DNA of 64,000 nucleotides, from the NCBI RefSeq assembly GCF_013214165.1, contig NZ_JABSSM010000022.1, positions 1 through 64,000 of the forward strand, read 5' to 3'. Below the pieces are notes generated by a model. The model worked only from the letters and a program-made list of their open reading frames with translations. It was not told the origin of the DNA and searched no databases. The position numbers and the translations under genes are program-made. Of this stretch, positions 1 through 56,876 are shown piece after piece (positions within the stretch are counted from its first letter, which is position 1; each line of letters starts with the position of its first letter). Source of the DNA: Shewanella sp. Its GTDB lineage: Bacteria; Pseudomonadota; Gammaproteobacteria; Enterobacterales; Shewanellaceae.

Positions 1-166
1 AACGGCATCAGGAACTGTGAGCCCGTGGGCCCAGTAATGTTGAATCCAGATAAAGAGCCTGAAACGGATGTAAGAAATGTAGCGTAAAATTAAGTAAAGA
101 GTGCCAACTACCTTGAAAAACACCGAAACCTCAATCTAAGAGACCACTTATCTTGTAAATCAGCAG

Positions 167-375
167 GTGTAGATGCGGCTGCGAGCTTCCAAAAAAAGGA
201 CTTTTTGGCAGAGCCCACAGGGACGTGTTCACGGCGTCTCGCAGAAGTATCTGCACAATCCTCGCCGGACAGGCGTTAGGTTACAATGAAGGGGGCGACC
301 TTCAAGCTACTACTCAAGAACGAAATAGCCAAATGAACCCCAAAAATGCATTAAGCCTTCATTTGAAGGCTAGTG
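167..375 (+). repeat. Structured dispersed repeat, copy A
   Basis: Stems: GTGTAGAT(167-174)/ATCTGCAC(249-256), CTGCGAG(179-185)/CTCGCAG(238-244), CCAAAAA(189-195)/TTTTTGG(202-208), CGCC/GGCG(263-275), AGCCTTCA-TT-TGAAGGCT(354-371). Homologous to four other copies. Confidence 0.75.
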
Positions 376-30235: not shown

Positions 30236-30340
30236 AATTGGGCTAGCCTTGGAATGAAGGCTGATGACATTTTTTGGTTTAGCTTCTGGCTGAATGGGTA
30301 TTGGGGAGTGTGTTTTAAGGTCGTCCTTTCATGGTGATCT

Positions 30341-30603
30341 ATCGCCTGTCCGGCGAGGCATGTGCACTCTTTATTTTGAGACGGTTCTGCGAGTCGCCGG
30401 CTCTTGATTTCATAAGAGTCATCCATGTGGGCTCAGCCAAAACATCTGACCGCCACGGGCCAATGATACTCCCGGTATCATTATGGCATTCCCTACATCC
30501 TTGTAGGTCAAGGAGGAAATGCCGAAAAATGTAGGGAACATTTTCGGCCCTGTTTTGGAAGCTCGCAGCCGCATCTACACTCAGTTATTTACTTCTTCGA
30601 TTT
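30341..30603 (-). repeat. Structured dispersed repeat, copy B (long loop)
   Basis: On minus: CTGCGAG(30568-30562)/CTCGCAG(30393-30387), CCAAAACA(30558-30551)/TGTTTTGG(30444-30437), CGCC/GGCG(30343-30355); 106-nt loop. Confidence 0.75.
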
Positions 30604-30729: not shown

Positions 30730-31173
30730 TTAACTCTTGAAACTGGATATGTAGCGTCCAATATTCTCCCCGTCTACTCTTTCATTTTTGAAGTAAAGAG
30801 AGACTACAGTTAGAAAATTGCCTGCTTTATTTTCGGTGTAGCGAAGTACTAACAGAGAGTCAGGGTTAACTCTCATCATTATTTTTATCTTATTGTTTTC
30901 TTCAGTGGTGTATATAGTGCCAGGTTGAGATAGCTTAAAGGATAGGGCCTCTTGCAAACTCTTCTTTATCTTTTTTAACCAGTGTCCATGTCTGTGTTCA
31001 ATGTGAATTTGGCCAAATCCCCTATGTCCTACTTGGAGTCTAATGGGAAGATCTTCATCAAAATTTACCATGGTGCCAGCTGGAATTACGGCCCAGTCTC
31101 TGTTGCCATTAATTTCCCAGAAATCAAATTTATGTGTACCTGTGCCAGTGTAAGTAAAAATATCTGATGCCAT
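30730..31173 (-). CDS. Hypothetical protein
   Basis: 147-aa ORF in an otherwise ORF-poor region. Confidence 0.5.
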   Translation of the reverse strand: MASDIFTYTGTGTHKFDFWEINGNRDWAVIPAGTMVNFDEDLPIRLQVGHRGFGQIHIEHRHGHWLKKIKKSLQEALSFKLSQPGTIYTTEENNKIKIMMRVNPDSLLVLRYTENKAGNFLTVVSLYFKNERVDGENIGRYISSFKS

Positions 31174-31478: not shown

Positions 31479-31993
31479 GCCTAAGATCTAAGTCTACGAT
31501 GTAGACAAACAATTGATCCTATGGTTCTGGGGAAATTAGATGCCTTACTGATTTCCCTTGTTAACCTCAGGTATCCCTTTTAATACCATCTTTATCTAAT
31601 ATTCTTATAAAGCAGCATAGTTAATTTATCTACTTTGCTAGTATAGTTACACACAAAATTTAGCTACTTGATTGGAAGTTGAACACAATCGGTGTTCTCT
31701 TAGATGCTTCAATCTTCCCCATACTGATCGTAATGCAAATCGTAGGTAACTCTAACGTATTGTGTCTATTCATGAGTGAGCTTGTTATTAACTCCAGTAA
31801 AACAAACTGTTATAACATGGTATGCTGACTTAAATTTTATACAATACAGAGGGCGGAGCGGATTAGGGATCTAAGATACTTTTTCTAATCAATGTCAGGA
31901 TCACTAGAGTGGTTGCACTAAACCATTTCTGTCCATAAACGTGTTTAGTTGTCACAAGCCAGTAGAACTAAAATCGAAGAAATAAATACTCAG

Positions 31994-32366
31994 GTGTGAA
32001 CGCGGCTGTGACCTTCGACAGCATGGCGAGGTTTCACTACGTGAAACTATCCGAGCGAGAGATAGGGATATCGAACTGGCAGCTAAACACGGACGTTGTT
32101 TGCTGTCGCAGAGGCTATATTGTGCCGTGTCACTGAAGTGTTTGCACTTAAGGTCGTTCATTCACATCTGACCCATAGGGATATGGGAAATGTCTTGAGA
32201 TGTAGGGAACATCTCTGACCATGTGATCACGACATTCATACATCCTGTACAGCACCTGCTGCAAGCAATAAATACCAATGAAGCCATGCTTACCAGATAA
32301 CAACCAAATACCAAACCAGCCAAATGAACCGACATTAGATATTTCAGCAACTTGTTATCCGACAAG
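31994..32366 (+). repeat. Structured dispersed repeat, copy C
   Basis: GTGTGAAC(31994-32001)/GTTTGCAC(32140-32147), CTGTGAC(32006-32012)/GTCACTG(32129-32135), CGACAGCA(32016-32023)/TGCTGTCG(32101-32108), CTTGTTATCCGACAAG(32351-32366). Confidence 0.75.
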
Positions 32367-32436
32367 TAAACACATTTTTGTCCACAAATGAGTTTCAGAC
32401 TCCCTGAAAACTAAAATCGAAGAAATAAATACTCAG

Positions 32437-32650
32437 GTGTGAACGCGGCTGTGACCTTCGAAAACAGGGATGTTTTCGTAGAGCTTACATGGACGTATTT
32501 ACAGCGTGTCATAGAAGTGTTTGCACATTCTTCGCCGGGCAGGCGTTAGATAACAGCTAAGCTATGGCATTCATAAAACCAGCCAAACAACAAAACCTGT
32601 CAAATGAACCTAACCCCTAAAGATATTTAACTAACTTGTTATCCGACAAG
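32437..32650 (+). repeat. Structured dispersed repeat, copy D
   Basis: GTGTGAAC(32437-32444)/GTTTGCAC(32519-32526), CTGTGAC(32449-32455)/GTCATAG(32508-32514), CGAAAAC(32459-32465)/GTTTTCG(32472-32478), CGCC/GGCG(32533-32545), CTTGTTATCCGACAAG(32635-32650). Confidence 0.8.
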
Positions 32651-32734
32651 TTGATAAGGTTTTTAGTCTAGAGCAGCCCAGAGAGCGGGATGAACTAGCG
32701 CGAATAGCTATGCTGGGTGAACTAGCTCGCGTCA

Positions 32735-56331: not shown

Positions 56332-56672
56332 TGCGTGAGTTAATCGGGGTCAGTAAAGTTAATCGGAGTCAGAGTAAGATTTAGTCAGGATTATAATTCA
56401 GTGTTCCCCCCAGTGTCATGACTGTTGTTCTCCTAATTTGATATGAGTAAAAACTAAGTGTCTAAAGAGGTTGTATCACCCATAAATGCTGATGTGTAGG
56501 CGGTTATTGGTTTACCAAAATTAGAGATCATACATACCATTTATGAGCCATAAGTTATGGCGTTCACCTTCATTAATCTGGTGCCATTTGTTGTACATAT
56601 TTAGAGAGGTTAATAAGTTTCTAGCCGTATTTAAGCTCAACACTGTGCTAAATCGAAGAGATAATTAGACAA

Positions 56673-56876
56673 GTGTAAACGCGGCTGTGAGCTTCTAAAA
56701 CAGGGATGTTTTGGTAGAGCCCACAAGGATGTGTTTACGGCGTCTCGCAGAAGTGTTTGCACATAAGCGAGCCGCAGGCTATTGATTAAAGTAGAAGCCT
56801 TGCCGCGCAATAATCTTAATTAACTTGATGGAAAATGAACTTGCACAAGATGCTTGCAGCTTGTTATCGAACAAGG
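56673..56876 (+). repeat. Structured dispersed repeat, copy E
   Basis: GTGTAAAC(56673-56680)/GTTTGCAC(56755-56762), CTGTGAG(56685-56691)/CTCGCAG(56744-56750), CTAAAAC/GTTTTGG(56695-56714), AGCC/GGCT(56770-56780), CTTGTT-ATCG-AACAAG(56860-56875). Confidence 0.75.

Follow-up and report, generated by a model that had tools for sequence, protein, structure and literature searches.

The repeat analysed here has two close relatives among described elements. One is TwoAYGGAY (Rfam RF01731, clan CL00106; Weinberg et al. 2010, PMC2864571), a candidate RNA that has already been predicted to bind CsrA (PMC4333381) and whose clan also includes CsrB. The other is the Yersinia palindromic sequence YPAL, or RU-2 (De Gregorio 2006, cited in PMC2759123 and PMC2229807), which is described with dyad symmetry and, adjoining it, target-site duplications of 3-26 bp. 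No CsrA link for YPAL appears in the literature found.

We analysed a window of 64,000 nt from a Shewanella contig, in which an earlier note had pointed out a dispersed, folded element in five copies. All five are present where they had been placed: A, C, D and E are matches of R1, a covariance model built from 29 intact copies of the same genome (alignment A3), and B was found by eye and by motif. Stems marked A2 below come from a structure-free MAFFT alignment of 29 copies from this genome.

166-256, plus strand: copy A, intact core (R1 107.4 bits, E=3.2e-29)
167-176/247-256 and 179-185/238-244, plus strand: copy A, stems P1 and P2 (A2)
186-211, plus strand: copy A, hairpin P3, loop AAGGAC at 196-201 (A2)
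213-235, plus strand: copy A, hairpin P4, loop AGGGAC at 219-224 (A2)
354-371, plus strand: copy A, 3' hairpin AGCCTTC..GAAGGCT, just beyond the stop end of the minus-strand ORF 378-1592
30245-30603, minus strand: copy B (by eye and motif)
30594-30603, minus strand: copy B, conserved 5' block; the 5' strand of P1 starts at 30580
30245-30262, minus strand: copy B, 3' hairpin
31971-32367, plus strand: copy C, with its core at 31993-32147 (R1 59.7 bits, E=5.1e-15)
31971-31980, plus strand: copy C, 5' block; its 3' hairpin lies at 32350-32367
32436-32526, plus strand: copy D, intact core (R1 104.8 bits, E=1.9e-28)
32437-32446/32517-32526 and 32449-32455/32508-32514, plus strand: copy D, stems P1 and P2 (A2)
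32456-32481, plus strand: copy D, hairpin P3, loop AGGGAT at 32466-32471 (A2)
32483-32505, plus strand: copy D, hairpin P4, loop ATGGAC at 32489-32494 (A2)
32633-32652, plus strand: copy D, 3' hairpin AACTTGTTATCCGACAAGTT
56672-56762, plus strand: copy E, intact core (R1 104.2 bits, E=2.9e-28)
56673-56682/56753-56762, plus strand: copy E, stem P1
56692-56717, plus strand: copy E, hairpin P3, loop AGGGAT at 56702-56707
56719-56741, plus strand: copy E, hairpin P4, loop AAGGAT at 56725-56730
56860-56875, plus strand: copy E, 3' hairpin CTTGTTATCGAACAAG

The 91-nt core is intact in A, D and E and carries insertions in B and C. Extra hairpin modules break up both P3 and P4 of copy B, and because of these insertions the R1 search with default filters did not report it. 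Copy C has a large module inside P3, a P4 without a GGA loop and additional hairpin modules. The modules inserted in P3 or P4, in copies B and C and at three further loci (L198, L208 and L218), are hairpins themselves, many with GGA loops or, on the opposite strand, TCC, as if a second hairpin family were nested in the first.

The earlier description needed some redrawing. Its P1, P2 and P3 stand, but P1 is really 10 bp long and a second branch hairpin, P4, had been overlooked. Only A, C and D have an exact form of the motif AAATGAACC, which had been listed as conserved, and the 3' hairpins and the CGCC/GGCG hairpin are not part of the class-wide conserved core.

Fold and folding strand

The core forms a three-way junction in which a basal stem of free sequence carries P3 and P4, the latter following the pattern GAGC-NAC-ANGGAN-GTN-YTYRC-NGC. 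In A2, 99.2% of pair cells are paired and 17 of the 27 pairs show compensatory changes, as expected from the common stem order and compensation that had been proposed. Double-change cells in this alignment numbered 148, against 50 ± 7 after shuffling and at most 23 in each slid control, although copies of one genome are akin and these cells do not count independent events. RNAalifold returned the same junction. A class-wide alignment of 30 copies (A4) showed compensatory changes in 29 of 32 pairs, and its double-change cells came to 309, where shuffling gave 75 ± 8. Having been fitted to the model, A4 is biased to the model's structure, but its P1 and P2 are essentially free in sequence. Single sequences folded with significant stability (z from -3.6 to -7.4). 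Among the sequences folded, only copy E gave the whole consensus junction as its minimum free energy structure, and P4 therefore rests mainly on covariation. Covariation in both alignments, together with RNAalifold, bears out a structured, non-coding element resembling a three-way junction.

Where one strand has a G-U pair, its complement has an A-C mismatch, which allows the two strands to be told apart. A2 contains 81 G-U cells, in 10 columns, and 0 A-C cells; in the basal arms of 155 distinct class copies, scored with equal penalties for both, G-U outnumbers A-C by 234 to 105. G-U pairs so far above A-C identify the named strand as the folding strand. With the covariation, this excess upholds the suggestion of a constraint on the folded form and assigns it to one strand: selection appears to act on the named strand in its folded, single-stranded state, be it RNA or DNA.

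Neither a symmetric cruciform nor strand-switch correction predicts a one-strand G-U asymmetry. Pairing kept by strand-switch (quasipalindrome) correction in replication, with no selection on a folded molecule, would leave the strictly conserved loops and the bulge of P4 unpredicted as well, and we regard it as very improbable. What speaks for it is one genome, G239, in which near-perfect basal stems (median 36 bp) differ in sequence from copy to copy, with 2 G-U against 4 A-C. At these loci (L264-L271) the basal inverted repeats of about 36 bp stay near-perfect despite rapid change. Strand-switch correction may help keep such long, copy-specific stems near-perfect, and may still help shape the outer basal arms of the element.

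Conserved GGA loops and a predicted CsrA/RsmA docking site

The apical loops of P3 and P4 both read ANGGAN and are usually closed by C-G. We located the loops by frame and stem, leaving their letters unused; in copy collections gathered with a model or pattern that partly favours GGA, GGA stood in P4 of 118/120 and in P3 of 112/120 Shewanella copies. Under the same proviso, non-Shewanella copies had GGA in P4 in 62/62 and in P3 in 61/62 cases, with C-ANGGAN-G in 59/62 for each hairpin. Common readings are ACAGGGATGT for P3 and TACANGGANGTA for P4. The GGA starts of the two hairpins lie 23 alignment columns apart, and the hexaloops are separated by about 21-23 nt.

These loops match RUACARGGAUGU, the CsrA consensus from SELEX, and likewise the RsmE consensus with CANGGANG. 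The element has the sequence features that mark a CsrA/RsmA-binding RNA, short hairpins with ANGGA in their loops and at least two such sites per RNA. That a CsrA dimer can bridge two sites of this kind is established for the protein family (work cited in PMC4333381). CsrA is encoded in the genome that carries the window. The same genome has a CsrB-like locus (G000:C45:4942-5278, minus strand; L396), whose 51.5 bits fall short of the gathering score, 71. Within the class, CsrA presence does not separate carriers of the element (44/48) from non-carriers (191/226).

We know of nothing else that requires two conserved C-ANGGAN-G loops, which makes CsrA/RsmA binding the best single explanation. 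The element is a MITE-like dispersed repeat with a constant part, the head, a three-way junction in which two mostly C-ANGGAN-G hairpins stand on a basal stem free in sequence. Were the named strand transcribed, one CsrA/RsmA dimer should clamp the head across both hairpins, as happens at sites in CsrB/RsmZ-type RNAs, and this binding, whether as a decoy or in local regulation, would be what conserves the head. Transcription of the head and CsrA binding are both predicted here. Spread probably proceeds through DNA-level amplification. A MITE-like element whose head is conserved as a predicted twin CsrA/RsmA docking site is the best explanation we have, and one we hold with moderate confidence. 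We go no higher because of an antisense bias relative to genes, set out below, and the non-discriminating co-occurrence with CsrA. We identified no promoter belonging to the element itself, and the only small-RNA match, to Ysr224, is on the opposite strand and below threshold.

Metabolism, motility and biofilms are all under the global control of CsrA/RsmA. If the loops do bind it, this regulator has genome-wide mobile binding sites that have so far gone unannotated. A bolder proposal, which we make only tentatively and think rather doubtful, is that the genomes of many Gammaproteobacteria host a twin CsrA-docking RNA in tens of mobile copies, a transposable decoy that loads the CsrA/RsmA network and perhaps rewires it. 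Were the decoy reading true, the copy number of CsrA decoys would vary between species. With R1 it can be tested directly how many copies a genome has, whether they are transcribed and how they affect Csr regulation.

Dispersal and gene context

The covariance-model search that had been suggested for the repeat returned, with R1, 62 places in the genome of the window at E<=1, 56 of them below 1e-3; blastn gave up to 96 matching pieces. The element occurs in 113 of 118 Shewanella genomes and, in a sample of Gammaproteobacteria, in 48/274 genomes and 43/222 genera, while in a phylum-wide draw all matches (16/16) fell within Gammaproteobacteria. Carriers include Marinobacter, Microbulbifer, Stenotrophomonas, Luteimonas, Rheinheimera, Halopseudomonas, Nitrococcus and Methylococcaceae. 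The number of copies found in a genome is a minimum, as only part of the candidates was scored. The window sequence, that is the Shewanella form, had no match in phages or plasmids, and the core pattern turned up in only 3 of 2.9 million viral contigs. E. coli chromosomes gave no blastn match to the one class copy used as query.

Shewanella elements sit close to the 3' ends of genes and are under-represented in divergent regions. Where neighbouring genes run in tandem, 48 elements are antisense and 19 sense (p=5e-4), or 34 against 14 when counted by region (p=0.006); genes here are long ORFs, and high-GC genomes, where ORF calling is unreliable, were left out. This bias argues against a simple sense 3'-UTR role, and a sense 3'-UTR element was rejected, the orientation in tandem contexts being the opposite one. 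It also tells against the CsrA reading, in that the wrong strand would be present in most mRNAs of neighbouring genes. Adjacent copies in opposite orientation face outward only: across the genome of the window, other Shewanella and the class, we counted 40 '-+' pairs and 0 '+-' pairs within 3-6 kb. A single rule, that the 3' end of the element faces the 3' end of a gene, would yield much of both patterns.

The same features could reflect cis action from the strand opposite to the named one, with the element inserted antisense behind genes and its complement plus 3' hairpin serving as a terminator or mRNA stabiliser, the GGA loops being incidental. The antisense bias and the nearness to gene 3' ends fit such action, as do the Ysr224 match to that strand and the 3' hairpin of copy A, which abuts a gene end. 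G-U pairs, however, are tolerated on the named strand, and its invariant GGA loops would be left unexplained; we consider this reading improbable.

Some sites gain and lose elements. A site between fadD-like and trmH genes is free of the element in three genomes (G334, G284 and G339), and elsewhere outward-facing elements stand there round differing genes. In the window, outward-facing elements from 30571 (minus strand) to 32003 (plus strand) bracket a 147-aa ORF (30730-31173) without a Pfam match; at the same site in relatives (L314, L315 and L322), the bracketed proteins are cytidine-deaminase-like, FRG-domain and SocA/Panacea antitoxin-like, suggesting a hot spot of defence or toxin-antitoxin type. 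In G346 the site (L313, G346:C111) is occupied by a chimera, one half from the left element and the other from a right element, fused near P3 as though by recombination between inverted copies. Target-site duplications were looked for in two places, around copy E and at the fadD-like/trmH site; each proved to be a rearranged hot spot and offered no clean empty site.

Dispersal of this kind brings in the main rival, in which some transposase or recombinase acts on the folded head as single-stranded DNA, much as in REPIN/RAYT systems, with loops and junction as recognition features and no RNA role. The dispersal of the copies, the hot spots where elements come and go, and the tandem arrays all suit it; so do the absence of a sense bias to genes and the outward-only pairs, which recall inverted REPIN doublets. 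The G-U excess, too, would fit a folded single DNA strand. Against it, heads occur with unrelated flanks and ends, as in YPAL-type elements, the long copy-specific stems of G239 and a near-identical family in G249 (L246-L251), which has the head inside ends reading TATACCC...GGGTATA; in these the ends, not the head, seem to be the mobility signal. An informal look at the positions listed for G366, with the origin position assumed, showed no obvious replication-strand bias. To our knowledge, two C-ANGGAN-G loops are what CsrA needs, and no transposase is known to require them. We judge a DNA substrate rather unlikely, and predicted CsrA/RsmA docking stays the preferred reading of the head.

Relation to known families

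The earlier note had called the element undescribed, which holds only in part: R1 matches a homologue of RU-2/YPAL and shares loci with RF01731. A check against Rfam itself agreed with the note, as no match in the window reaches a gathering score. In a full-text literature search with the core motif, the RU-2 paper was the only relevant match. The Y. pestis RU-2 (YPAL) sequence printed in PMC2759123 has the same core as the element, GAGCC-TACA-TGGA-TGTA-TTTACGGCGT together with a P3 hairpin whose loop reads AAGGAT, and an element found on enterobacterial plasmids, 75% identical to RU-2, matches R1 with 44.4 bits (E=1.8e-11). Both YPAL/RU-2 and our element are dispersed, intergenic and MITE-like. 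YPAL differs in being 168 bp long with other flanks and in having been reported as a DNA element and for enterobacteria only; the full element of about 168 bp is absent here, and Shewanella flanks and 3' hairpins differ from those of the printed RU-2.

TwoAYGGAY likewise combines a long basal stem, a three-way junction and two hairpins with GGA hexaloops, and is multicopy in Gammaproteobacteria, with minus/plus doublets among its matches. RF01731 aligned to one copy of our element below threshold with both GGA loops in register, and loci L391, L394 and L395 are matched by both R1 and RF01731, reaching the RF01731 gathering threshold (43 bits). RF01731 is present in 22/274 class genomes, part of which have several copies; it has no match at E<=0.01 in the genome of the window or among the Shewanella copies. 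The loop of our element is ANGGAN, mostly AGGGAT with G as second letter, whereas TwoAYGGAY has AYGGAY with Y there; the conserved linkers differ, and P4 of our element has a 5-nt bulge on its 3' side. RF01731 is not presented as a mobile repeat in the literature found.

CsrB/CsrC and RsmX/Y/Z sponge RNAs (for example RF00018) also display GGA hairpin loops to CsrA/RsmA. CsrB/RsmZ-type RNAs, however, are sRNAs from single loci with many sites, whereas the element has two sites per copy and tens of copies, its transcription being a prediction. Integron attC sites and group II introns were set aside, the basal stem being free in sequence class-wide and the copies dispersed. ERIC and REPIN/REP (GTAG- or CGTC-tagged; PMC3733652, PMC10969869) are likewise dispersed intergenic palindromic elements, and REPIN doublets are inverted pairs like the opposite pairs found here, but a three-way-junction head with two GGA loops lies outside the definitions of both, and we noticed no GTAG tag at the core of the element. 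Downstream of the 3' hairpin there is often a sequence of the type CTGGATTCCCGCCC, similar to known CGTC-tagged REP repeats (for example in elements at C113, C95, C66 and C27). The ends of the G249 family look like those that PMC2759123 prints for ERIC, a hint that ERIC and this family are more deeply linked.

We regard the fold, its strand, the loops and the family link as solid. No paper we found, in a search that covered literature outside subscription journals, joins YPAL, TwoAYGGAY and the Shewanella repeats. What appears to be new is one family made from YPAL and TwoAYGGAY, its scale, its MITE-like dispersal, its outward-only pairs and its antisense bias; two separate orphans, a mobile repeat and a candidate RNA, are now joined.
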